Source: Hydractinia symbiolongicarpus
Taxonomy: Eukaryota > Cnidaria > Hydrozoa > Anthoathecata > Hydractiniidae
Assembly (NCBI RefSeq): GCF_029227915.1
Contig: NC_079878.1
Span: 9,610,001-9,674,000 of the forward strand
Direction: 5' to 3'
Length of the DNA: 64,000 nt
Below are positions 2 to 58,489 of this stretch, piece by piece (the first letter of the stretch is position 1; every line of letters begins with the position of its first letter). The notes under the pieces are model-generated. The model searched no databases. It worked only from the letters and a program-made list of their open reading frames with translations, and was not told the origin of the DNA. The position numbers and the translations under genes were made by a program.

Positions 2-3000
2 GAGAAAGACCTTAAGATTGGAAAACTCGAGCAGGACATCGAAACTCTTAGAAAAAAATTGACAGAATCTGAGGATGCATTGAGCTACGCTGGAACCATG
101 AAAGAGGAGTTTGCCACGCAGTTAGAGGACACGCAGAAATTGTTGCAAGCTGAACGGAAGGCTAGATGTGAAGCTGAACAGTTGTGTGAAACTCATCTAG
201 AGACAATCAAAACATTAAAAGAAGAAGTTAGGAAAATTAAAGAATCTTTTGAGTATCTGACCACGGTCAAGTTGGAAATGAACGAAGAACTTCAGAGTAA
301 AGCCACTGAACTTGACAACGCCAAGAAAGAAAAAGAAACTGTTTTAAAACAATTAGAAACTTGTAAGGCACGGTTGGATGATTTAGAAAGTAAAACTGTA
401 AGAGAAAAAGAGTTGAATGACCAAGTCCAAAAGGAAAGGGACCATTTCAAGAGCGAGGTAAACAAGCTGAGAATCTGTTTCGATACGTTAAATGAAGAAA
501 AACACAAGAACGTGGAAAATTTGAACCAAGTAAACATCAAACTACAAGAGATGCAAACCTTGTTAGATGCTAAACAGAAGGAAGTGCGTAAGATGGAGGA
601 AGCGCTTGGAAATGAGAAAGAAAACAATGTGTGCCACAAAGCGGAGATTTCAAACTTGAATATAAGTCTAGTAGAAGCGCAGAAATCAGCAGAGAAAGAA
701 AAGCGAAGAGTGAAAAAACTACAACACGATATGGAAAAGAAAGATCTCTCAATTAGTGAACTTGAGCAACAACTTAATTCGCTTAACTGTCAACTCGCAA
801 CGAAGGAAAACGCGCTCAAAGAAACCGTGGAAAATCTCACGAGAGCCGAAAACACACTCTCTTTAGAGAAAGAGATGCATACCTCGAAGCAGGCAAAACT
901 GGAAGAAATTAAAAAAAGTCTAATGCGTTCTCGCGCGCTTTCCTCCCAAGAGGATATTACTTCAGATAATTCTAACTTAGACGAAACTATTGATTTCAAC
1001 TCGCAGATACTCAAATTACAAGAGGAGATTGTAAAGGTATGGTTAATTTGTTTTCTTTTTGCATTTCCCGTTTAAATACTCTTCTCCGGTCTTTTTAAAA
1101 TTTTCTATGGTTAAAATTTTACAACGAATGATAATGCTAACTGAAATGGTAACTGCGAAAAGCAATCGGCAAATCCTATATATTTTCTTGGTTACTATAA
1201 ATCTATTAGCAGGTAGAGTAAAAACTAGTGGGCTATACAAAAAAAGGTTTTTACTGTCAATGCATCTTTCTTAGCTTGAAAAGGACAAAAAGCAGATGGT
1301 GGAAGCAGCTGTTGAAGAAGAAAGACTTCGAATAGTTGAAGCATCCAAACAATTTGTTCTCGAGAGAGAAAAAGAAAACGAGACTCGTAACCAAGATCTT
1401 CTCGATGATATCAAGCTAAAAGAAAAGAAGATTACAAATCTTCAAAAAACGATCTCACAAAAAGAGGAGGAGTGTAAACAGTTCGAGTATATACTGAGCA
1501 AGGAAAAAGAAACGTACCAAGAGCTATTGAAAACATCCGAAGAAGAAAAAAACGTGACCAGCGTGACCGCACCCGCTGAGCGTTTTAACGGAGATGAAAT
1601 TAATGAGATGCGAGAAAGGCTGGAGAGGGCTAAATTACAGAATGAAGAGCTAAGAGGAGATTTTGCGAAGACGGTAGATGATTACGAAAGAGCTAAGGCA
1701 AAGGAAAGTCGCGAGTTTGGTAAACTAAAAGAACAATGTGAAAACTTTAAATCGCTTTGCGAGAAGAAAGACGTTGATTTAAAACGTTTAAAAGCTTTGA
1801 CGATAGAGCCAAGACGAAACGAGAAATTACTGGAAGATTTGCGTGAAAAGTTAATGTCCTCGGATGAGAAATATATCACGCTGGAATTCAAAAACGAAGA
1901 CTTGCAGAATGCGTTAAAAAGCGCAACAAAAAAACACGAAATTGAAATGAGTGGAATCAGTAAAAAATTGTCTTCCCTAATGAAGGATAACGATCAATTG
2001 CGATTAAAACTTGAGGAAACCATGAAAAGGCTTTCCTTGCTTGAAAAGGAAAATTTGATATTAAAAAAAGATTTAGCAGCGTATCCGTTTGCAAAAAACA
2101 GCATGGTATCGCCTTTAACGAGATCTTTATCTTCTTTGAAAGTGTTGTCAAGCGAAGATGATTCTACAAACGATGTCTCTTCCATCCAAACCAACTCTTC
2201 CATCCAAACCGACTCGTCGCGAGTGCAATCTCAAGCTAAAGGGATTCTGAAAAAGTCATCTGAGACTCCAAAACGGAGTATGGAATCTACAGGTTGGTAC
2301 AGGTGTAAACTTTTTTTATACAACTTTGCTTCCTTTCTTTTCACACAAGAAGAGGGTGGGGTAATTCCACTTTAAACTCTTTGATTTTTCGTAGCTAAAC
2401 TTTTAAAATACTGCTCCGTTGCTAAGCTTCGATTCTGCTAAGATGTTCAGGGATACACTTTGTCAGGAATGTGAGAATTTTTTTTTAAATTGTCAAAATG
2501 TCAGGAAAAAGTCAAGAATATCAGGAACATTGCGTCAAAGCTATGATGTTTTTCAAGTATCAATATTTTGCTTTATTAATATACTTGTTGTTAAATGTAC
2601 TTATAGGGTAATCTAAGGTTTCATTCCAATAACGAATGTGTTCTCAAACCAGAACAACTGGAAATATCAATAAAAATATCGCTGATTCGCAAACGATTTG
2701 TTCTGTGGTTAGAATACTGACCGCGCTGATTGGTTGGTTACTTTCACTTGATCATTATCGGGGAACATATTTCTTGTTTTAAGCAAACTAACTGCCGAAA
2801 TTAAAATTTGAATATTACGCCTAGATTTTAGACTGAAAAAATGAGTAAATTTGAGGCTAAACTCGAAATTAACTTTGCAAATTTTCAGTCTGGTCAGTTG
2901 CTGACCCAGATCACGTCCTGGAACTTTTACTCGCCTTATTTACCGAACAAAAGTGACATACAGACCAATCATTATGAAGCATGATAATGTGCACGTGCTC

Positions 3001-4540
3001 TTAAATAAGTCGTGTATACTAAAATTTCCTGAACTTTCCCACTATATTTCTTTTATGCCATGTCATATTTACACCAAGTTCCATAGGCGGGGTTTAACCC
3101 GTTAGGGGGTAAAAGATGCACTGCAGATGTTTCAGAAGCGCTGTGTCACTTAACCATAGAATGTGCCAGAGATAGAACACTGTGTAATTTAAGCAAGTTC
3201 GTTTGAATCTAGATGTCTAGGCAACTTGACTATTACTTGTGATTTAGAAACGGATTTTTTAGTTCCGTACAGACATCCAATTTTCCAGTTGACTGTGTAT
3301 ATATTTATTTCTACTGCTTATTTTCTTAGAGAGTCTGTCATCAAAAGCCAACTCGAAGAGGACACGTTTAAACACCGTGATTGAGCATTCTAATGGTTAC
3401 GAGACAAAAATTTCACCATCGTCGGCTGCTGATCAAAGCGGAAGAAGAAGGTCGACGAGGCTTGCACGTAAACCATACAGTAGAGAGATGCCTTCCAGTT
3501 CTTCTGATGACGAGGTGAGTGAGACCTTAAGTGAGACCGAAGGGAAGAGGGAGAGATACAATTTGTAAAAATAAGTCTGCAAAGTATATCATAAAATTGG
3601 AGTTCGTTAAAATAACTATCGCACGGAAGCTCATGGAAACCTTAGTACAAAAACATTCGTTCGCAAAGTGTTTCTTGATATCTCACAAAATAAATCTATA
3701 ACAATAAAAAATAAATAAAAAAATTACTTGGGATCCAAATAAATCCTTTAAAACAAAATATTTTCCTATTAAATCGCAAAAATAAATCCAGAAAAAAGTT
3801 TATTTAGCATTAATCTATTTAAGATATGGTTGCAACCTTGTTTATTTTACGCCATAAAAACATAAAAACGAGGTTGTTTAATCATGCTTTTATTATCTTG
3901 TATAGGTTCTGCAGAAGCAACTTTCGGGTTCAACCACTTCTCACCCTACGAAAGAAAATCCAGCACATGCTCGTGTTACTCGTGCACGTGACAAAGAAAC
4001 GACACCATTGTCCCCCAAAAAGACAAATATTACGGATTTAAACTCTTCTCTAACGGTACCGAAAAAGCCTCATCGTGATCTTGGTATGCCGACAAGAATA
4101 GTTGGTAATAAAAACGTACAACAAGGTACGAGTTTGTTCATTTCCTTCTCTGTCTGTTTGCTTGTTGGTCGGTCGGTCGGTCGGTCGGTCGGTCGGTCGG
4201 TCGGTCGGTCGGTCGGTCGGTCGGTCGGTCGGTCGGTCGGTCGGTCGGTCGGTCGGTGGTGACACGAGACTTTGTTTATAAGTTCTGGCCGCCTTTGATC
4301 CTTTGAAAGGGTGACTAAATACCCAGTATAAAAGATTTGACAAAATTCTCCCAAAGTCCTAATTAAGTTTTGTCCTTTATTCTAACACATCATTTTTTAA
4401 TAGGTCCCTGCAGAGCGACGCGTTTAAATTCGACTCGTAACGCAGATGCTGAAGTTACGAGCAAACATTCCGTAAAAGCTCGTCCGTCGTTACGGAGTGA
4501 TGGTAACAGCGAACAGGAAGAAAAATGCAATATGCAGTAG
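2..4540 (+). CDS. Large coiled-coil protein, 3' part (5' end outside window)
   Basis: Five exons join in frame: 2-1036, 1275-2292, 3330-3514, 3906-4125 and 4404-4540, stop TAG at 4538. All introns are GT-AG and phases agree (0, 1, 0, 1). The visible 864 residues open inside a long Glu/Lys/Leu-rich heptad coiled coil of roughly 640 residues. A Ser/Thr-rich region follows, with a doubled SSIQT motif and an ILKKSSETPKRS stretch. The tail is basic and disordered, including RRRSTRLARKPY and an SSSSDDE acidic patch. No enzymatic domain is visible. The architecture would suit the stalk and tail of a motor or a cytoskeletal or centrosomal scaffold; a kinesin-6 (KIF20-like) origin is only a guess, since any head domain lies upstream of base 1. 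Exon structure is firm; identity is not. Confidence 0.75.
4167..4257. repeat. (GGTC)n microsatellite
   Basis: About 22 uninterrupted copies of the tetranucleotide GGTC lie in the last intron of the coiled-coil gene, about 40 bp after the donor site of its fourth exon. Stop-free frames across it (Ser-Val-Gly-Arg on +, Pro-Thr-Asp-Arg on -) are repeat artefacts. Confidence 0.97.
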
Positions 4541-6685: not shown

Positions 6686-9600
6686 CTACGTTCTTTGTGG
6701 GGCTACAAAAGGTCTCTGTTGCGCTCCACCAAATGGTCTCTGTTGGGCTCCGCCAAATGGTCTAGGTGGTGCACCAGGCGCTCCAGGTGTCTGTCCTGGA
6801 CGTTGCTGTCTGTTATCATCACGCTGAAAAAAGAAAAATGTTGTTTATGTTTGCTGTTTCTGACTAACTTCAACAAAAAAAATTGTTGCCAATACACAAC
6901 GATTCGTTAATATTTACCCTCATTCCGAATCTTGGCGGTGGAGTACGGATTTTTCTGTCTTCTCGAGATCTGTTACGCACAACCTTCGAATGGATAGCAC
7001 AGCTCACACAGTAGCTCAATTTTGCATACAGTTTAGGAAGTTGGTAACCTATAAACAAACAGAACTAACATTACAAGTGACGAAGATGTATTTACAGACA
7101 ACTAACATTCACGACAGGATGACATGATGTTGCAGACAAAAAGAATAAAAATGAAATTCAAGATGAAGAATCTGCAGGTGTGCAATCTTACAGGTGTGTA
7201 CACCATTATTTAGTCATGGCACTCAATAAAGGTGTGAGTCCACGGTGGAGAATGGTGATTAATTTAGCATCGTTTATTAATCACTGCATATAAATAATGC
7301 ACAATTACTCAAACAGTGCAGATTCAATATAACTAGTTTTCCTTATACAGCCGAAGGATTTCAGTAAAAAAAGGTTGACGGATTGGATTACCTAACTTAT
7401 CCACTGTAAATTTGCAGTATGTATTTACCTTGTTTTGAGAAGCTAAACAATGTTTAGGGCAAAGTGAAAAAATCAATTGTTTTAAAAAAAAGTAAGAAAT
7501 TTGTACGCCCAAAAATGGAATATGTGGAATAAACTTTTGTGGATAGAGACCTCAAAAGAGATATTGCAGAATAAATTTTTGTGGATGCAAGAAATTTGGT
7601 AAATCGAAAGTCGAACCTAACCTAATTACTATCTCGCCTGCGAGGAGTATTTAAATACAGCTGTCCGTCCTAAAATGGAAATTTTTGGCTCTCTGAGCAC
7701 CGACACGGGAGTAGTCGTGTGTTCGAATCTTATCTTGGTAACTATTTTTACTTTTTTTTTCTTTTTACTATCTCGCCTGCGAGGATAGGTTTCCAACTCG
7801 TAACCAACTAAATGTCCCAAATGGTCAATTGCAAAAAGGTATGCTGAACATAATAGTGACATCATAATTTTGATTTTTGTCACCTAAATGTCATTTTAGG
7901 CCAAAATTGGTCTGAAATTAAAACTACTTTATTTTCGACAAAATTTGGCACAGATAACAAAAAAAGTATGCTAACATGATGGTGACATCAAAATTTTGAT
8001 TCTTTGTCACCTAAATGCCGTTTAAAACCATAAACGTTTCAATCGCGCGACTTTTAACCATTAGCAGAAATTGTAGAATTGGGTCGCATTGTGGATGTTT
8101 CATAGTTGTGCATTTTTAATAGCGAGATAGTTTATGCAGCGCCTGCATCTTGTTTAGTATGAAAAACATCTGTCTAATTTTAATTAAAAAATCAAATATT
8201 TTTATTTGGTCAGTAAGTCAACAGATCAGTAAGGTTAGAAAACATGTGTTCACCAATTTTTAGAATATATCAGGGTTAAAAGAACTACGTCACGAAACAT
8301 GATCCATGGTCCGAAACAAGACCACTGGAAATGCATACTTATTACTAAACACAAGCAAATTGGCTATGAAGGTGAATTTTGCATGAACTATTTTCTTTGA
8401 TAACTAGTATCATCATGTCATTAAACAAAACCCAACTCCCTTAACTAGGCTAGAGTAAACATTATATCAATGCTTTACAACCCTGTCATGATTTTAAATG
8501 TACACTATTTTTTAGTCATGGTAACTCAATTTAGAATGCACATGAGTCCACGGTGGAGAACAGTGATTTATTTAGCAATGTTTATTAAATTTTACATATA
8601 AATAACGTAAAACAACTCAAACAGTGCAAACTTATTTAAAATTTGTTGTTTCTTGAACATCTAAACGATACTTCAATGGTAAAGTTAAGTAGGTAACATG
8701 TCAGGAGACCCTTTCCAGTCATCAGGTAAACTAATTACACAGGAGTGTATTGGTTTAATTGTTTTTTCACATGGTTTTTATTTTTCACAAAAAAATTTAT
8801 TTACTGCGTGTTTACTATGTAAAACATAAAATGAAAGATTGCGTATATCCAAGTTCAACAACTTCTCATAGTCGCAGTTCAATGACGTTTTAATAAAAAA
8901 ACACTATACTCCCTTGTAATGTACTGTGTACTCTCTTCGCTAAAACAATTTTAATTTTAAGAGAAAATAATAGCTTTTATTAAAAGGACTAAAATGTAAC
9001 ACATAGTCCTGGGGGGAAGAGAGGGTTGTCACTATAAGCATTTCAGTCAGGAATTAATTCTGACTTTTGGTGATCAATGTACCTTTTTTTGCGGCAATGT
9101 CTCTTTAATAATAACCGTCGTCTGTCTGCCTGTGTGTCCACGAAAGCCGCGTCCCGTAACGGGAACACAACACATATTTTTGTTCACTTTGTTGCAACGG
9201 GTAAATTTAAAGGACTGGCGACCCCGTGGACTTTTCCACGGGCTAATGACTAGTCTATATTATAATACCTGTATATGTCTCTCTGTCTGTCACGCAAAAT
9301 GGTAGCTTAGCTGCACAAGTACGCACAGTATAAAAAGGACTGGCGAACCTGACGACTAGTTTATTTAATTTTCAGTTGGTTTCAATACAGTACCAACAAA
9401 TGTGACTATTTTACTACGACAATATATTTATTGAATGTACACTATTTTTTAGTCATGGTAACTCAATTAAAAATGCACCTGAGCCCACGGTGGAGAATAG
9501 TTAGTTCTTTAGCATCATTTTAAGACCTTGTTTTATGCAATAAAACAAACTCATTATTAAAACAATGCTGCATAACAAGAATTAAAAAATGTTGAATATC

Positions 9601-11076
9601 TTACTTTCATAAACGCTGGCCTCACTTAAATCTCGCACAGCAGCTGCTTCAACAATATTTCTTATAACAAATTTTTTGATGGCCTTATCCTTGGGGACAC
9701 ATCGGGCACAGTTTGTGCATCGGACATATCGGACGTGTCCACGGCCACTTTTGTTCCGTCCACCATTCCTTCGCTTTTGTGTCTAAAAAAAGAAAATAAT
9801 GAGAAATTGTCTTTGAACAATTTTAGGGTGACTTACAAATTGAAAAATACATGCTGAACGCCAATTCCATGTTTAGATAACACAATGATTGCAAGAACCT
9901 TTTAACTTGTTGTTAAAAACCCTTGCTAAACTTGTGTTTAACTGAACCAAGTCAGTCAGTCCTGAAAATTTGGCAGAAACGATCGTTTTGTTTTTGCAAC
10001 ATTTCTGCGAATCAATAAAGCTGGTAAGGATAAATCGTTTCCCTTGGAGAATATTTAAATTATAATCATTTTATATTATAATATATATTATATATTTATA
10101 TTATAATATTTTACTACTATAGAGTAGGTCTTGTCACTGACCAGGGGGATTATGAAATGGTTCTCCACTTATCCACAAGGTCCACTTCGCAGAAACAAAA
10201 AATGTTTTGATTATTTACATCAGCTTCAAATCGCGGTAACGATGGATCGTTTCCCTAGAATCCATAAATTTTAAGGCCTGTCATTTATGGTAAAGTGTCT
10301 TGGTAAACTACAGTGCCTTTTTTGTGGTGCCGTAGATTAGTGGTTATAGCTGTCGTGCTCTGTGTGGGAGACCGGATTTTCTGGGTCCTGTAAACTTGCC
10401 ATAAGTACCCTAAAGAAATTAATTTTTACGGGAATTAATTTTTGCAAGTCTATATTATAATACCCATATACATCTGTCTGTCACGCAAAATCGTAACCGC
10501 ATTAGCGAGACACGAAATGCAGGTAATAAAGGACAGGCTGAGCCGTGGATTTATCTATTTTTGTCAATTTAGGGAAAATTAGTTCTCACAAATTTTTTTT
10601 CAAATATATCTTGTTTGAATCAAAAAGTTTTTTCCATGTTTTTTCCGTCTTATAGCCAAAAGTGAGTCAGTCGGAGGACGCGAAATAACATATTTTTGAT
10701 GGCGACCCAACATATATGGCACTTTCCGGCAAGTTGGCAGCCTCTTCCCAACTGATATTGCACAGGAAGAACTGACACCAATCAAATCCTGTTTAATTTT
10801 AAGACACTGTAGTTTGATTAAATGACAAGTGCAGGTAAGGTAGAAGATGCCGTTTAAATGACACAGTAACTGCCAGAATGAAGTTTTTAATCACGCAAGG
10901 AATTTCTTCTATCCAGGATAAAAAGGTACTGGCTACATTTCTTTAGTTTCTAGCTCGCTAAATTGGCAAATACATATCTAATTCTCAGTATGAACAAATT
11001 TTGTAATAAAAATTTTCTGTTACGTTAATAAAGCTTGTATAACTCTAAATAAACGATCAGTTTGCACTCTTACCAT
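6686..11076 (-). CDS. RPS26: 40S ribosomal protein S26 (eS26)
   Basis: Four minus-strand exons: 11074-11076 (the ATG alone), 9605-9782, 6918-7048 and 6686-6823. They give 149 residues. The ATG-only first exon, followed by GTAAGA, is a layout known for RPS26 genes. The protein starts MTQKRRNGG, carries the eS26 zinc cysteines at C23/C26 (CTNC) and a second CVSC pair, and contains the family signatures [20 protein letters not shown] and KVVRNRSRE. It is a component of the small subunit near the mRNA exit channel. After the TPPPRF motif, where animal eS26 normally ends within about 15 residues, this protein runs on for nearly 50 residues with FGGAQQRPF repeats. Intron 2 (7049-9604) hosts three H/ACA snoRNA candidates, and introns 1 and 2 hold Helitron-like repeats. 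Confidence 0.95.
7194..7320 (-). ncRNA. H/ACA box snoRNA candidate, copy 1 (RPS26 intron 2)
   Basis: On the host strand the sequence folds as hairpin, H box, hairpin, ACA. The 5' hairpin has a GCA..GTTT / AAAC..TGC lower stem and a TGCAT/ATGCA upper stem. The H box is AAATTA (ANANNA). The 3' hairpin has outer stem CACCATT/AATGGTG and inner stem CGTGGACTCA paired with TGAGT-G-CCATG. ACA stands 3 nt before the inferred 3' end at 7194. The 3' pocket strands CTCCAC and ACTAA match 18S rRNA around UUAGU-UG-GUGGAG, a segment I recall as conserved. The ACA lies 15 nt from the pocket, as expected for this class. Confidence 0.85.
7628..8045. repeat. Dispersed repeat mosaic in RPS26 intron 2
   Basis: The segment has two CTCGCCTGCGAGGA palindromic patches and about 1.3 units of the family tandemly repeated at 13800-14130 (CACCTAAATGTCATTTTAGG, AAATTTGGCACAG, GGTGACATCA). 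Between them, near 7700-7725, is a tRNA B-box-like GTGTTCGAATC, possibly a decayed SINE. No gene is visible. Confidence 0.7.
8496..8627 (-). ncRNA. H/ACA box snoRNA candidate, copy 2 (RPS26 intron 2)
   Basis: Same architecture as the copy at 7194-7320. The 5' hairpin keeps the GCA..GTTT / AAAC..TGC base and has a TTTTAC/GTAAAA upper stem. The H box is AAATAA. The 3' hairpin outer stem is CACTGTT/AATAGTG, the inner stem and the guide strands CTCCAC and ACTAA are unchanged, and ACA lies 3 nt from the end. Relative to copy 1 one outer-stem pair changed from C-G to U-A and another from A-U to G-U, so pairing is kept although the bases changed. Confidence 0.85.
9102..9253 (+). mobile_element. Short non-autonomous Helitron-like element, copy A
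   Basis: It starts TCTTTAATAATAACCGTCG and ends with a GC-rich hairpin (CCGTGGACTTTTCCACGG) followed by GCTAATGACTAG, that is hairpin, short spacer and CTAG, with T as the next base. TC start, subterminal hairpin and CTRR end define Helitrons. The following element starts at the very next base. Confidence 0.7.
9254..9359 (+). mobile_element. Short non-autonomous Helitron-like element, copy B
   Basis: It begins TCTATATTATAATACCTG and ends GACGACTAG followed by T. It shares the GTCTGTCACGCAAAATGGTAG core with the 21749-21880 copy but has lost most of the terminal hairpin. It abuts copy A with no spacer. Confidence 0.7.
9433..9568 (-). ncRNA. H/ACA box snoRNA candidate, copy 3 (RPS26 intron 2)
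   Basis: The 5' hairpin is fully paired at its base (GCATTGTTTT with AAAATGATGC, including two G-U pairs) and has a GTTTTAT/ATAAAAC upper stem. The H box is AAAGAA. The 3' hairpin has ACTATT/AATAGT, the conserved CGTGG and CCATG stem, guide strands CTCCAC and ACTAA, and ACA 3 nt from the 3' end. The 5' hairpin differs most from the other copies while still folding. Confidence 0.85.
10326..10400 (+). repeat. Probable tRNA-derived SINE fragment
   Basis: GTAGATTAGTGGTTATAGC resembles a pol III A box region and GTGTGGGAGACCGGATTTT a degraded tRNA T-arm region, in the spacing of an Asp/Glu-type tRNA. The B box is too degenerate for a functional tRNA. It lies in RPS26 intron 1. Confidence 0.45.
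10449..10555 (+). mobile_element. Short non-autonomous Helitron-like element, copy C (decayed 3' end)
   Basis: It begins TCTATATTATAATACCCATA and contains the shared CTGTCTGTCACGCAAAAT core and the GCCGTGGATTT half of the terminal hairpin. The closing hairpin arm and CTAG are not recognisable. Confidence 0.6.
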
Positions 11077-11498: not shown

Positions 11499-14400
11499 AT
11501 GGCTGCAAAGGTTTTAAACACCATTGGTAAACTGGGTATCGGACTGGCTATCACTGGAGGAATCGTGAGCAATGCTTTATACAATGGTAGGCTGAAGATT
11601 TTTTAACTAGAAATTAAAAAAAAGGTTGCGAATCATTTTGCAAGTTGCAAGCAGAATTAAGCTATCCAATACTTTATCCCTAGCGCTTCTTGTTTTTCTA
11701 GCGCTAACATCTTCCGAAATACATCAAAGTTGAATATCATAGCGTAGAAGATCCTTGGGAACGAGGAAGGGAAATGAACGCTCTTCTGCAGAACAATTCG
11801 TTGTGCAAAAACAGTTTTTTGTACCACCTTTTCCCACAGAATGATAAAAGTAAAAAGCACATTACAAAATTACACTTTAGTAGTATTCTGAAAAATTTAT
11901 AATACATCAAGTTGTACAACCCACAGAACTTGGTCTTAACGTTAATGATTTTGTAGATGACCTTACAAAAAAATAGTATTTTTTTCACATAAAAATACAG
12001 GCACTAGAAGCCACAGTATCTGCTGGAACGAATTTCGAAAACTTGCGGGAAACAATTAAAACAAACAAATCAAAACAGTTTTTAAACTTTATCAAGATTT
12101 ATTAAATAGCTTCAATTTTGGGCAGAAAAAACAAAGGTTTTGCTTTCTTTTCACCACACGCATTGGAAGATTACATCACTCAATCCAATTATACATAGTC
12201 TAAAAAAAAGAAAACATTTTCATATAGTGAAGTTTCAAGTGCCTTTAAGGGATGACCAAATCAATGGAATTGAAAGTGCTGTTTTTCATCTCATAAATAA
12301 GGCAATTTCAGTTAAGTATAAAAGAAAAAACTATGGCAACTTTACTAATTTTAGATTTTACTAATTTTTAAATATTTTTTTTCAGGATTTGATTGATGCA
12401 AGGTCAAGGGAAATTAAATAAGTTTATTGTCCCAGACACATTAAAAAATACATGCGTCTTATGTTTCGTTTTTTTTTCAACCAACATTAATGCAATCACC
12501 TAGAGGAAATTATAATTTCTCTTGCCTGTGTCATGCAGTTTGCTTAAATCAATGCACAACACAAAGTTTTGAAGCTAAGTACACAAATACAAAAAATATT
12601 ACAAGTGCTGAACTTTCGTAATTATATTTTGCAATCAGACCCTATTGAAAACTATGCTGAATCATGTCTATTATTAAATTTATCCCTATAGAATAGCACC
12701 TTGGATAGGATTATTTGTTGGATGAATAAAATGACTGATAAATGGTTTATTGTAAATAAAATGGAAATTTTTACACAAATAGTTTTAAAAATAATGAACT
12801 TTTTTATGTGAATTGTTCTCAAACATACGGGGGTGGTGGACAAGAAAATGTGATGTAATTTCTCTTGGTCTATTATTCCTGAGAATGTTCTAAGATTACA
12901 AGCAGTTTCGAAAATGGCCACACCTTTTAGAGGACCTGTCTGGCTTGGGCATCCTTGGAGTTTTGTTTAAATGACAGTTTTAATGTCATTTTAAACCTTG
13001 TTTTCAGGGAGGGTGTGCGGACAACTAATTCCCATTGACAATTACATTGCTGTTGGTTTGATAGCAAAAGTGGATATTTTTTTTAATTACTGTAAATAAA
13101 AATTGTAATGAAAAACGGTTGGTCAGCTCAATCTAACACCCAGAGCTATTTGTTTTGTTTGCACCCTAACTACAGGTTTTCCTCTATCTGGCTATCAGTC
13201 AGGTAGTAATACAGCTTCTCCATATTTATTCTACAAATTACTTTCAATTCTTTTATATACAAAACAGAGCTAGGAGGTCGCTAGCCACCTTTCGTGTTTA
13301 AGCCATACCTTGATTTGGATAAAACTGTAAAATGGTAATATTGTATTCTTACATCCTCTTAGAAACAATAAAATAAAACACAGCTCGGCGCGTTATAATT
13401 CTACAAATTACTTCAATCTTTCTTTAGAAAAGGGTAGCTTACACAGGAGCTTTCCAATCCAACTTAAATCTCCAGAAAAAGCACAACAACAGAAGAGCTT
13501 AAAATACACAAGTAAAGTCAATTAGAAACAGGACTAGCAATAAATTATTTTAAAAGAAGAAAACAGTTTTAATACTATTATTGAATTTCCGCGCCTGAAG
13601 GCGTAGGAAATTCTTTAAAACCGTCGTTTTTTTCTTTCGGAGCATTTTTTGAGAAAAAATCGACCCTGGGATTTCACGTTCTTCTGAGAGGAGGATAGTA
13701 TTGGTATAACCGACTAACTAACTAACCCTGTCCCAAATGGTCAAACTCAACGTCACAGATTTAAACTTCGTACCCAAGCTCCCAAGTACTGGGAAGTCAT
13801 CTAAATGACGTTTCAGGCCAAAATTGGTATTTGTTTTCGACAAAATTTGGCACAGTTAACAAAAAAAGTATGCTGAACATAATGGTGACATCATAATTTT
13901 GATTTTTGTCACCTAAATGTCATTTTAAGCCAAAATTGGTCCAATAATTAAAACTACTTTATTTTCAACAAAATTTGGCACAGTTAACAAATGAAGTATG
14001 CTGAACATGATGGTGACATCACAATTTTGATTTCTTGTTACCTAAATGTCATTTTAGGCCAAAATTGGTCCAAAAATTAAAACTACTTCATTTTTGACAA
14101 AATTTGGCACAGTTAACAAAAAAAGTATGCTCCACAATTTTACTTCGCTCGCGAAGTTCAATTGCATCACAATAATCTATAACTTTTCCACACCAATCTT
14201 TTTTACATGTTTAGCTAAGGGGTCTTCGAAAAAAATTTTGAGCCCTGTTAGCGAGATATCACTACTAAAGGGGGGGTCTGAAGTTTGAAAAAAAAATCCG
14301 CTAAAGATTGAGAAATTTCAAAAATTTGTTCGTGGCCTGAAAATTCTTCGTCATTCGTGAGCAGAATTCCTGTCATCAATTCCGATAACTTTTATCTACA

Positions 14401-22222: not shown

Positions 22223-25200
22223 TCAATAAGCTCTTGGTTCTTTATTAGCTCGTTTCGAATCAAATTCATCTAAATCCAACAGCAACGCATCAATGTCGTC
22301 AAAATTAACGTCATCATCATCATTGTTACTGTCATCGTGATCAAGCGGTTGACATTCTTGAGTTGCAGAATCTTTGTTGTTTATCAACATTGACGATGAA
22401 TCAGTTACTGGTAATGGTGGAAGGTCAAACACACTGCTATCTTGTTTATGATTTAATGGTGGAAGTTTTCCCAGTCTATTCTTTGATATTGAAAGAGGTG
22501 CTAACTTTTTACACAGTGATGATGGATTTGATAACAATTTAAAGTTGCTATCTTCATAGGACGATAGTTCATCGTCTCTTTCTTCGATGTTTCTGATCGT
22601 CTTACCTATAAGGTAAATTTTTTAAATAACATTTTATCTTACAAAATGCAACACTAACATACAATGGTTCTAATGAACTTGTTGCATAATATTTTTGCTA
22701 ACATTAAGATACTTGAATAAAGTAAATTGTTACCTTTACTTGGCTGACATGTTAAAATCATTTTGTTATCTGCACCGTTGTCTGGAATGACCATTTCACC
22801 ATCTTCAATTTCAAACGATTTATTTAAATCGTCATCATCCGATAAGGGACAAATGTCAACTTCATTTTCTTTGGAAGAACTAGAAATGTCACTTGCTACA
22901 GATTCTTCACATTCTTCTCCAATCTCTTCACTGATACTTTCATCAAATTTATCATTTTTTGACTGTGGAGCTGCAAACATATTGAGGCTTCCAGCAATTG
23001 GTTGCATAAATCCTGTCTCACTTGTTGATGCATCACTGTCAACTTCATCTTGTTTTTCCATTGATGAATTAGCATCCGCTTCGACATCGTTGCTTGTTGA
23101 CATAAAAATATCAATATTGCCACCTTTCGAAGCATCATTGAACTCATCTTTTGTGGAATTGTCATTATCTGTGTTTTCAGCAAGCAGTTGACATTCTTGA
23201 GTTGCAGAATTTTTCTTGTTTATCAAAGATGACGATGAACCAGTTACAGGTAATGGTGGAAGGTCAAACACACTGCTATCTTGTTTATGATTTAATGGTG
23301 GAAGTTTTCCCAGTCTATTCTTTGATATTGAAAGAGGTGCTAACTTTTTACACAGTGATGATGGATTTGATAACAATTTAAAGTTGCTATCTTCATAGGA
23401 CGATAGTTCATCGTCTCTTTCTTCGATGTTTCTGATCGTCTTACCTATAAGGTAAATTTTTTAAATAACATTTTATCTTACAAAATGGCGACACTAACAT
23501 ACAATGGTTCTAATGAACTTGTTGCATTTTTTTCGCTAACATTGGAGGATTGAAGTAAATTGTTACCGTTGCTTGGCTGGCATGTTACAATCATTTTTTT
23601 ATCTTCCGCACTGTTGTCTGGAATGACCATTTCATCATCTTCAATTTCAAACGATTCATTCAAATCGTCATCATTCGATGAAGGACAAATGTCAATCTCA
23701 TCTTCTTTAAAAGAAGTAGAAATGTCACTTGCTACAGATTCTTCACATTCTTCTCCAATCTCTTCACTGATACTTTCATCAAATTTATCATTTTTTGGCT
23801 GTGGAGCTGCAAACATATTGGGACTTCCAGCAATTGGTTGTATAAATCCTGTCTCACTTGTTGATGCATCACTGTGAACTTCATCTTGGTTTTCCATTGA
23901 TGAATTAGCATCCGCTTCGACATGGTTGCTTGTTGACATAAAAATGTCAATATCGCAACCTTTCGAAGCATCATTGAATTCATCTTTAATCGACTTGTCA
24001 TGGTCTGAAACTTTATCAAGTGGTTGACATTTTTGAGTTGCAGAATTTTTGTTCTTTATCAAAGATGACGATGAAACAGTTACAGGTAGTGGTGGAAGGT
24101 CAAACACACTGCTATCTCGTTTATGATTCAATGGTGGAAGTTTTCCAAATTTATTCTTTAATGTTGGAAGAGGTGCTAACTTTTTACACAGTGATGATGG
24201 ATTTGATAACAATTTAAAGTTGCTGTCTTCATAGGACGATAGTTCATCGTCTTTTTGGCTTGGCTGGCATGTAAATATCATTTTATTATCTGCACTATCG
24301 TCTGGAATGACCATTTCATATTTTTTACACTCAACAGATTTATCCAAATCGTCATCATTTGATAAGTGACCTTTGTCGCTTTTATCATTTTTAGAAGAAG
24401 TAGAAATTTCATTCGCGTGTGAACTTTGGTTTTCAGTTTTGACTTCTTTGATGTTTACCGTAAGTTTTCCTATAAAAAAATACTTCAATCTGTAATTCAT
24501 GAAACTTGTTTAAATCTTTATGTAAAATTAATTGTTTGGGTAAGAATACGAATGTTTGGTTGTTCATAGTAGCTGAATTAAAAATATTTACTTTCATTTG
24601 ATTGACAGATGTCAATCTTTTTATCCTCCACACTGTTGTCTGGAATGACCATTTCATCATCTTCAATTTCAAATGATTTATTCAAATCGTCATCATCCGA
24701 TAAGGGACAAATGTCATTCTCATCTTCTTTGAAAGAAGTAGAAATGTCACTTGCCACAGATTCTTCACATTCTTCTCCAATCTCTTCATTAATACTTTCA
24801 TCAAATTTATCATTTTTTGACTGTGGAGCTGCAAACATATTGAGGCTTCCGGCAATTGGTTGTATAAATCCTGTCTCACTTGTTGATGCATCACTGTCAC
24901 CTTCATCTTGTTTTTTCATTGATGAATTAGCATCCGCTTCGACATGGTTGCTTGTTGACATAAAAATATCAATATCGCCACCTTTCGAAGCATCATTGAA
25001 TTCATCTTTAATCGACTTGTCATGGTCTGAAACTTTATTAAGTGGTTGACATTCTTGAATTGCAGAATTTTTGTTCTTTATCAAAGTTGACGATGAACCA
25101 GTTACAGGTAGTGGTGGAAGGTCAAACACACTGCTATCTCGTTTATGATTCGATGGTGAAAGTTTTTCCAGTCTATTCTTTGATGTTAAAAGAGGTGCTA

Positions 25201-28200
25201 ACTTTTTACACAGCGATGATGGATTTGATAACAATTTAAAGTTGCTGTCTTCATATGACGATAACATGTCGTCGTTTTGTTTGATGTTGTGGTTTGTATA
25301 GCCTATAGTAAATAAAATTTATTTTTATTGCTAAAATAATTTTGGCATGCTATTATAAAGTTTTCTATCCTTATTTGTGTGAGGTAAGATCACTGTAAGA
25401 CGTGTCTTACCCTTTCTTGATTGGTAGTTTTCAATCACTTTATATTTTACGCTATTTTCTGGAATGACCATTTTATCTTTCTTAATTTCAAACGATTCAT
25501 TCAAATTGTCATTATTCGATACGGGACAGTTGTCGCCATCATCATTTTTAGAAAAAATAGTCATTTTGTTCGCTGGTAAATAATGTTTTTCAATCTTGTC
25601 TTTTTTGATGTTTAATGTAATTTCTTTATCTTTTCTTGTACTTTTACCTACAAAAAACGTGTTAAACCATTAAAAATTAGGGTTAATTAACTATCCTAAC
25701 GATTTTATCAAATTAGAACATTAAAGCGAGACTGATACTGTGTATATATGAGGACTTGGTTGTGTAAAAAGTATATTAAAAATATTTACTTTCATTTGAT
25801 TGACTGGTGTCAATCATTTTATCCTCTGCACTGTTGTCTGGAATGACTATTTCATCATCTTCAATTTCAAACGATTCATTCGAATAGTCATCATCCGATG
25901 AAGGACAAATCTCCCCTTCATCATCTTTAAAAGAAGTAGAAATGTCACTTGCTACAGATTCTTCACATCCTTTTCCAATATTTTCACTAATACTTTCATC
26001 ATTGTTTGACTGTGGAGCTGCAAGCATGTTGATACTTCCCGAAATTGGTTGTATTAATCCTGTCTCACTTGTTGATGCATCACTGTCAACTTCATCTTTG
26101 TTCCCAGTTGATGTGAGGATATCTACTCTGACTTCGTTATTTTCTGTCATACCGCTCTTTATTTTATCAATTTTGATAGAGGCAACCTTTTTCTCCCCAT
26201 TATCTCCCTCACTAGTATTCATCTCAATATTTATCTCCTTATAATCCATTTCATGAAATTTAAGCTCAATCTCGTCAGAAACACAAACATCCCTCCTTTC
26301 TTCATTCTCGCGCTCCTTCATGTTTTTCTCTCCCCAGTCTCTTTTTGGAGTTGGTATATTGTCGTCGCTATTTTAACAAGAAAGAAAATTAAGTTATTAA
26401 ATAGGACTTAAAATGGCTACAACCAAAAAAATAGCTACAAAGGTGAAACATGATCACATAAATGAAACCATGAGTAAAACACTGTAGTACTTACCTCTTT
26501 GAGACATCCATTTCACAGGTCGCGTTAAGTTCGAATACTTTTGCTTCCAACTCCTTTACTTTTCTTTTCAAACCCTTAGCTTCATTCTTCTCTTCTTTGT
26601 AGTTCTTAACAAGATTTTCATAGCGTGTTATTTCAATTTGCAATTTGTTCAAATCGTGTTTGGTCTTTTCAAAATCATGCAGAGTTGCATTCAGTTCAGT
26701 TTCAACTGAGTGAAGCTGCTTGTGTATGTTATCCTTATCCTCCTCTAATCTTCTTTTATGGCCATCGCATAATGAATGCGCTTCTTTAAGATGAGATAAC
26801 TCTTCTTCCAAGTCCTTTTTGTTTTGAACCAACTCAAGCTTTTTCAACTCACAAATTTCGTTCTGTTGTTTCAACTTATCAAGTTCCTCACTCTCGCATT
26901 CAGTGCTTGCTTTTGACAAATCTCTTTGAGCTTTATCCAATTCTTCTTGCAAATCAGAAAGCTGCTTGCTTAAAGTGGTGATATTTTCTTCAGCCTTTTC
27001 AAGTTCTGATTCTGATTCCTGTAGCAGCAACGTCTTTTTTTCGAGGTTTGCAGACACTTTTTCTTTTGCTTGCAATTCTGTTGTAAGCTGCTTCGTCATT
27101 TCGCTTTTCTTTGTGCAGTCATTTTTAACTTTTTCTAAATCGATATTCAGATCATTAACTTTCTTGTTGGCAATCTCAAGACATTTGTCTTTTTCCAAAA
27201 CCTCTTTTTTCAGCTTCTCGTTGGTGTTAACATATTCTTCATTCTTTTCTTCTATCTCTTTCACTATTTGACTTTTCTCTTCTAATTTCTTCGACATCTC
27301 TTCGAACTGTTCCTCCTCCAACGTAAATTCTTTGTTCAACTTCTCTACTTGCTCCGCCGCACTTAGCATGTCTCGATGTTCCAATTTTAAATCTCTGATT
27401 TCTCTGTCAGCTTTCTTTAAACTCCATTTTACATCAGCAAGCTCTTTCTCCAGCTCATCGACATTCTTGTCGGCTACATTCAATCTCCATTCATATCTCT
27501 CAGCTTGGTGTTTCATTTTATCTGTCATTTGAGTTAACTGTGTCATTAACTCCTCTTTATGTGCTTGTAAAAGTTCGTTGCCTTTGTTAACTTCAAACAG
27601 TTCTTGTTCGAGTTCATCCATTCTTTTCAACCTTTCCTCTGTCTCCATCTTATCCTGAACTGCATCCTGGAGTTTATCATTCAGTTCATCAAGTTTCAGT
27701 TGAAGATCTGCTTTGCTATTAAACAATTTTTTGTTTTCATCTTCAATTTCTGTCAAGTCGTCGGAAATATGACGCTTTTCTTCACTCAACTTTTGGATCA
27801 TAGACATCGATGTTTTATGCTGTTCTTCAAAACATCTTAATCGATCACTAAGCTCCTCTAAATCATTCTCCTTTTCTGCAAGGCTAAAGGAAATCAAATT
27901 CTTTTGGTTGTTGTTGTCGTCTAGCTGTTTTACCAACTCGTCGATTTTTGCTTTTAACTCTACCACAGCATTTTCATAATCTTGAACCCTTTTTAGAAGG
28001 GTAGAAACTTCACAATCTCTTTGTTTTTGCAATTTGATTTCTTGTTGGACCTGCTGTTCTTTCTCTTTTACGTAATCTTGCAGTTCTTTCACCAATCCAT
28101 CTTTTTCGGCAAGAAGAATTTTCATTAACTTAAGTTCTTCTTCACTTCGCTCTTTATTTTCGATAATCCTTTCAAGCTCTTCACAACGCACTTTCAACTT

Positions 28201-29718: not shown

Positions 29719-30153
29719 TTAAAAATTTTCAAAAAATCAAATGGTAATTTTTTATATTAGACTTTTTGTTGATCAGCTGATGTCATTTCGCTTGTCAATT
29801 TAAACGGTCAAAATTTTAAAGCGTACTGCGTGAAATTTCTCGTAAACATCGCAACCGAAGGAAAATTAAAGCCGTCAGCTATTAGTCTGTCTCTTGGAAT
29901 TATTTTAACAAAAAATTTGCTAGTTAGAAGTTTCAAATTAGACACGACGAAGGCGTGAATCAATAACAATCAATTACGCATGCAAATTTTAGACATGACT
30001 CCTTAGTGTTTAGCACTAATGAGTCATTGTCGTTTTTGTAAATTGACAAATTTTTGGCCCGCCCGCACTTATTATCTTATTAACGGAAAAAATAAAAATT
30101 TCCATCGCTAACCTTGCGCAAGCTATAGAAGTGCAGAGTGACAGTCGGTGACT

Positions 30154-30319
30154 TTAAGGGGGGTTTTCACGAAGCGAATTGAACGGCGAATTCGACGACG
30201 AATTGTATCTGAGCATGCGCATTTTTGTTTGTTTTGATTTTGCATCGAACTGCGCATGCTCAGATACAATTCGCCGTCGAATTCGCCGCTTAATTTGCTT
30301 CGTTAAAATCCCCCTTTTT
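30154..30319. mobile_element. Palindromic MITE, ~165 bp
   Basis: Two arms of about 70 bp, around 90% complementary, surround a loop of about 25 bp. Outer ends read AAGGGGGGTTTTCACGAAGC and, inverted, AAGGGGGATTTTAACGAAGC; the inner ends share TGTATCTGAGCATGCGCA. TTA or TTTA flanks on both sides could be the target duplication. It has no coding capacity. Confidence 0.88.
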
Positions 30320-30325
30320 ACCTAG

Positions 30326-37087: not shown

Positions 37088-58489
<21,402 letters not shown>

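Follow-up and report, generated by a model that had tools for sequence, protein, structure and literature searches.

The H/ACA small nucleolar RNA (snoRNA) SNORA4 (ACA4; Rfam family RF00394) of vertebrates guides, from its 3′ hairpin, the modification of an 18S rRNA site that carries the number 1305 in chicken (PMC2653536). The same site is Ψ1290 in yeast, where it is guided by snR83 (PMC8307265, PMC9045821), an RNA that guides Ψ1415 in addition. One snoRNA per intron is described as the common rule in animals (PMC1821038, PMC11028025). The four copies of DmSnR60 in the Drosophila gene mfl are box C/D snoRNAs that were duplicated in cis and are housed one per intron (PMC1821038). RNAs that end in snoRNAs, the sno-lncRNAs, have been described in human and other mammals, and include SLERT, a human H/ACA-ended sno-lncRNA that is made by exon skipping (PMC11028025).

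Here we describe three predicted H/ACA elements that share a single intron of the ribosomal protein gene RPS26 in Hydractinia symbiolongicarpus. They lie in a stretch of 64,000 nt (hereafter, the window) at positions 9,610,001–9,674,000 of the forward strand of contig NC_079878.1 (C4) in assembly GCF_029227915.1. The genome comprises 480.9 Mb in 76 contigs, and the window is AT-rich, with a GC content of 33.6%. Judging from the sequence, we consider it highly likely that these are three intron-encoded H/ACA snoRNA genes, counterparts of SNORA4 and snR83 that would direct one 18S pseudouridine.

The arrangement, with three elements in one intron, is unusual; the kind of RNA is ordinary and well known. 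SNORA4 of chicken is listed as one variant in intron 9 of EIF4A2 (PMC2653536), whereas here three copies occupy one intron of RPS26, and the likeness to snR83 lies in the site that is guided. As with the DmSnR60 copies, duplicated guides reside in a host gene tied to ribosome making, but those are box C/D RNAs with one copy per intron, whereas the present elements are of the H/ACA type and stand three to an intron. Among the titles that our literature search returned, none concerned an H/ACA triplet in an RPS26 intron.

Three H/ACA elements in intron 2 of RPS26

An earlier note on this DNA had placed three tandem H/ACA elements in RPS26 intron 2, on the host strand, at spacings of about 1.3 and 0.9 kb. 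Position and strand are as it claimed, and the measured spacings are 1302 and 937 nt. Copies are numbered by position in the window, so that copy 3 comes first in the transcript.

9605–9782, minus strand: RPS26 exon 2 (Pfam PF01283 (S26e), 102.3 bits; ends by eye)
7049–9604, minus strand: RPS26 intron 2, phase 1, GT–AG, host of the three elements (splice sites by eye; flanking exons match S26e)
6918–7048, minus strand: RPS26 exon 3 (Pfam PF01283 (S26e), 71.7 bits; ends by eye)
6686–6823, minus strand: RPS26 exon 4, coding part (frame runs on from exon 3 across a GT–AG intron, by eye)
9433–9570, minus strand: predicted H/ACA copy 3, first in the transcript, about 34 nt past the 5′ splice site (fold, guide pocket, similarity)
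8496–8628, minus strand: predicted H/ACA copy 2, internal (fold, guide pocket, SNORA40 at 23.6 bits, below cut-off)
7194–7320, minus strand: predicted H/ACA copy 1, last in the transcript, 145 nt before the 3′ splice site (fold, guide pocket, Rfam matches below cut-off)
9505–9510, minus strand: H box AAAGAA, copy 3
8568–8573, minus strand: H box AAATAA, copy 2
7260–7265, minus strand: H box AAATTA, copy 1
9436–9438, minus strand: ACA box, copy 3
8499–8501, minus strand: ACA box, copy 2
7197–7199, minus strand: ACA box, copy 1
9490–9495, minus strand: left guide CTCCAC, copy 3
9449–9453, minus strand: right guide ACTAA, copy 3
8553–8558, minus strand: left guide CTCCAC, copy 2
8512–8516, minus strand: right guide ACTAA, copy 2
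7245–7250, minus strand: left guide CTCCAC, copy 1
7210–7214, minus strand: right guide ACTAA, copy 1, 15 nt before ACA

Exon 4 gave no Pfam match when searched alone. All three H boxes fit ANANNA and every ACA box lies 3 nt from the predicted 3′ end, both of which the earlier note had read in the same way.

The sequence between the copies is rich in repeats. A 127–129-bp unit within intron 2 (7833–8033) recurs about 6 kb away as a tandem array (13796–14131), 80–92% alike. Other repeats in the window include a perfect (GGTC) microsatellite of 22.8 units (4167–4257), a 20-bp minisatellite (38713–39280; 28.5 copies) whose three forward frames all hold long open stretches and a 65-bp unit with 4 repeats at 99% (47168–47427). 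On the minus strand at 22223–26372, several tandem coding frames share KLLSNPSSLCKKLAPL or nearby parts, with cross-matches of 85–94%.

A shared 3′ pocket and its predicted 18S target

The nucleotides of the 3′ pocket are invariant in all three copies (left CTCCAC, 6 of 6 positions; right ACTAA, 5 of 5) and stand 15 nt upstream of ACA in each, which bears out the claim that the copies share one guide. The distance from pocket to box in H/ACA RNAs is 14–16 nt. In every copy, the pocket pairs with U1291 of the organism's own 18S rRNA through 5+6 Watson–Crick pairs. This exact 5+6 site occurs once in the 1802-nt 18S, and is absent from the organism's own 5.8S and from the partly masked 4.3 kb after it.

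When ranked against other sites in the organism's own rRNA, U1291 comes first for each of the three 3′ pockets, and 0, 1 and 0 of 20 shuffled target sets scored as well. An earlier target set, from another eukaryote, combined rRNA fragments found in a contaminated bacterial MAG and in an IMG/VR contig; there, too, the best site was the same 18S uridine (equalled by 1, 1 and 0 of 60 shuffles), and the exact 5+6 site arose by chance in 1 of 3000 shuffled sets. The H/ACA reading put forward in the earlier note is therefore supported by an independent test, in that all three 3′ pockets converge on a single 18S site of this organism, for which guides are known in other eukaryotes (SNORA4 and snR83).

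As to the genomic rRNA loci, many of the 30 18S matches listed are scattered over several Mb of C1 (about 34.3–39.3 Mb) in both orientations, some of them partial, and no single tandem array is visible among the matches listed. A comparison of two 18S loci over 3156 nt showed 100% identity. Pieces of eukaryotic rRNA also occur fused to phage-like sequence in two IMG/VR viral contigs, and one contig of a cyanobacterial MAG is eukaryotic rDNA; these are chimeras or contamination.

The correspondence to a known modification site follows from its spacing to a second one. U1291 lies 103 nt from position 1188, the snR36/ACA36 site, in the 18S of this organism. The same distance separates yeast Ψ1187 (snR36) from Ψ1290 (snR83) (PMC8307265), and chicken 1202 (ACA36 homologue) from 1305 (ACA4 homologue, 3′ hairpin, given as ‘7+5 nt (3′)’) (PMC2653536). 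Because this spacing is equal in the three rRNAs, U1291 is the site guided by SNORA4 and snR83. The human SNORA36 site is 1244 (PMC6466398), from which the 103-nt spacing yields 1347 as a derived human number. Two other identities, human U1354 as the equivalent of the target and SNORA15 with 18S-1367 (PMC6466398), were dropped when published tables pointed to the SNORA4 site.

No convincing target emerged for the 5′ hairpin of any copy; likewise, the row for chicken SNORA4 gives a 3′ target only (PMC2653536). Against the organism's own rRNA (28S masked past its start), the best scores of the 5′ pockets were reached by 9 of 20 shuffles for copy 2 and by 7 of 20 for copy 3. The 5′ pocket of copy 1 has 18S U121 as its top match (0 of 20 shuffles), but this requires a weak alternative inner stem. 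We rejected U121 as the equivalent of yeast Ψ120, from which it is 2 nt off.

Matches to known RNA families

In the whole window, no Rfam family was found at its gathering score. In the covariance comparison with H/ACA families, a check named in the earlier note, none reached the gathering score, and the best Rfam match on the elements was SNORA4 (RF00394) on copy 1, with 34.7 bits against a gathering score of 56. Five of the six Rfam matches reported for a 4-kb stretch were H/ACA families on the elements, on the host strand and all sub-threshold. In the search of the whole window, 3 of the 14 sub-threshold matches fell on the elements, with E-values of 0.17 (SNORA4), 1.7 and 9.7. A genome search with RF00394 returned 0 matches; it scored 52 of 115197 candidates and missed the known copies.

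The consensus of the SNORA4 family contains the guide words CUCCAC and ACUA, as do these copies. In Schizosaccharomyces pombe snR92 (RF01444), the words CUCCACC and GACUAAAU of the 3′ pocket line up with copy 1, at 23.9 bits versus a cut-off of 80. The EIF4A2 synteny of SNORA4 is not shared, as RPS26 is the host here; because snoRNAs move between host genes (PMC3511168), this is not decisive. In function the elements are predicted to match SNORA4; by score they fall short of formal membership in the Rfam family.

Elsewhere in the window, a near-perfect palindrome of about 150 nt (30150–30320; −110 kcal/mol), which looks like a MITE-type inverted repeat, draws sub-threshold Rfam matches to miRNAs (MIR7504 and MIR156) on both strands.

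Folding, divergence and compensated base pairs

When folded alone on the host strand, all three copies adopt a hairpin, an ANANNA hinge, a second hairpin and an ACA tail, with a pocket in both hairpins. The earlier note had treated this layout as evidence; the layout itself stands in each copy, but its evidential value does not, being at chance level. A generic H/ACA descriptor matched 24 places on the plus strand and 30 on the minus strand of the window, all three copies included, and 15–27 (plus) and 20–36 (minus) places on eight shuffled windows, so the H/ACA layout alone carries no weight in this window. Fold z values relative to shuffles were −2.56, −3.27 and −2.72 on the host strand for copies 1, 2 and 3, versus −1.40, −0.90 and −2.29 for the antisense.

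With 60-nt flanks included, the minimum free energy (MFE) structure retains both hairpins in copy 2 only (1 of 3); copy 1 loses its 5′ hairpin and 3′ outer stem, and copy 3 its 3′ outer stem. This result counts against simple folding within the pre-mRNA. The hinge of copy 2 becomes partly paired once more 5′ sequence is included in the fold. Flanking complementary stems, by which the two ends of a copy might be drawn together, did not beat shuffles (446, 324 and 460 of 500 at least as strong), and no flanking stem hints at a processing site for any of the three copies.

By blastn, copies 1 and 2 share 79% identity across nearly their full length, and the match between copies 2 and 3, at 90%, takes in the 3′ half and the H box; the 5′ hairpin of copy 3 drew no blastn match. 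In global alignments, this hairpin agrees with copy 1 in 34 of 53 aligned positions and with copy 2 in 31 of 53; alignments as good arose in 0 and 39 of 1000 shuffles, respectively. These alignments show it to be strongly diverged but still related to copy 1; its relationship to copy 2 is less clear. Similarity between the copies ends near the element boundaries.

Across the three sequences, 5 of 28 consensus pairs are compensated, three of them in the 5′ inner stem, the part in which the alignment of copy 3 is the least secure. This number was reached by 3 of 500 shuffles, and a control in which the partner was slid by 1–3 columns gave only 0–1 compensated pairs. Unpaired cells number 5 of 84, two in copy 1 and three in copy 3. 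The 3′ outer stem, for which the earlier note had claimed that pairing persists while bases change, lives up to this in part: one of its seven pairs is truly compensated (C–G to U–A), one changes from A–U to G–U and one is broken in copy 3. What convinces is the combined case of stable sense folds, 5 of 28 compensated pairs and an identical 3′ guide pocket.

Copy number and a duplicated region

Hundreds of copies elsewhere in the genome would have pointed to a transposon, as the earlier note had set out. A blastn search of the 481-Mb genome with copy 2 found six places; a pattern made of the guide and inner stem found the same six, a count that strongly diverged copies could escape in both searches, and the reversed control pattern found none. 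Three of the places are the elements described here and three lie in a duplicate of the region (C4: 984.5–986.8 kb). Six places in 481 Mb argue against an abundant transposon. A covariance model built from the copies, trained on three of these six places with the remaining three being near-copies, scored them at 139–159 bits, against at most 17.1 for anything else in 164 kb.

The duplicate is 94–99.6% identical in long blocks over the 80 kb compared (C4: 970001–1050000), and these blocks reach its ends. Nearly the whole window, with 7–10 kb on each side, has a second version 8.6 Mb away on the same 36-Mb contig. Either a recent duplication on a large scale or a haplotype left uncollapsed could account for this. 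Between the duplicate and the window, copies 2 and 3 are identical; copy 1 carries one extra CA in its loop region in the duplicate. Within intron 2, there are 0 substitutions in the 407 nt of the elements versus 13 in the other 2149 nt, which is weak evidence of constraint on the elements.

Proposed mechanism and alternative explanations

We propose that the RNAs are transcribed with the RPS26 pre-mRNA, freed from the spliced intron and bound by H/ACA proteins. Members of this class are stable RNAs, here expected at 125–140 nt, in complex with dyskerin, Nhp2, Nop10 and Gar1. The 3′ pocket pairs with 18S 5′-UUAGU-Ψ-G-GUGGAG-3′, in which the synthase would isomerise U1291 (own numbering; 1290 in yeast and, as derived above, 1347 in human). 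The copies probably arose by duplication inside the intron, at a time so distant that the flanks, and the 5′ half in large part, have diverged while the 3′ guide stayed fixed. Trimming from both intron ends could expose no more than the outer ends of copies 3 and 1; to release what lies inside, the intron would have to be cut, failing which the remnant would persist as a sno-lncRNA (PMC11028025). Very probably, at least one copy is functional. We also lean, with a good deal less assurance, towards all three being so.

A serious possibility, albeit one that we hold to be improbable on balance, is that only one or two copies work and the remainder are decaying duplicates, with copy 2 not freed by exonuclease trimming from the intron ends alone. 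The 5′ hairpin of copy 3, which shares 31–34 of 53 positions with the others, its one broken outer pair and the usual animal rule of one snoRNA per intron (PMC11028025, PMC1821038) would all fit such decay, but the guides, the ACA, an H box and the 15-nt spacing are retained in all three copies, each of which also folds better than its shuffles, and copies 2 and 3 are unchanged in the duplicate, where the contrast of 0/407 with 13/2149 substitutions adds weak evidence. It is unlikely that the intron instead yields sno-lncRNAs, that is, remnants capped by two copies (copies 3 and 1, for example, would enclose about 2.4 kb) that do more than guide. Trimming of an intron that holds two snoRNAs can leave snoRNA-ended RNAs (PMC11028025); three are predicted in intron 2, and copies 3 and 1 are near its two ends, but the sequence between the copies is repeat-rich. 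In such a case, the two end copies would protect the 2.4-kb remnant as an H/ACA-ended sno-lncRNA in a ribosomal-protein gene, with copy 2 cut out by an endonuclease or retained inside, an outcome that we regard as doubtful. As in SLERT and other sno-lncRNAs, at least two snoRNAs could share one RNA remnant here, but SLERT arises by exon skipping across two introns, whereas the present case would involve one intron. We know of no sno-lncRNA outside human and other mammals.

We give very little credence to a transposon or SINE-like repeat that merely resembles a snoRNA. The intron is indeed repeat-rich, and the similarity between copies stops near the element ends; however, the six places that both searches of the 481-Mb genome gave, in which strongly diverged copies could be missed, all fall in two copies of one intron, and a SINE is not expected to show an 18S guide match together with compensated pairs. 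It is just as improbable that the signal stems from the opposite strand or from some other intronic element: copy 3 folds in the antisense too (z of −2.29), but copies 1 and 2 reach only −1.40 and −0.90 there, and all five H/ACA matches from Rfam, sub-threshold as they are, fall on the host strand.

Implications

Read as three H/ACA snoRNA genes, the triplet departs from the one-per-intron rule and raises the matter of how an internal H/ACA RNA is released and of the fate of the intron remnant. The locus also adds a well-supported candidate guide for a conserved 18S pseudouridine, in a place where Rfam models find nothing at cut-off, and this blank suggests that standard annotation misses such RNAs in this lineage.
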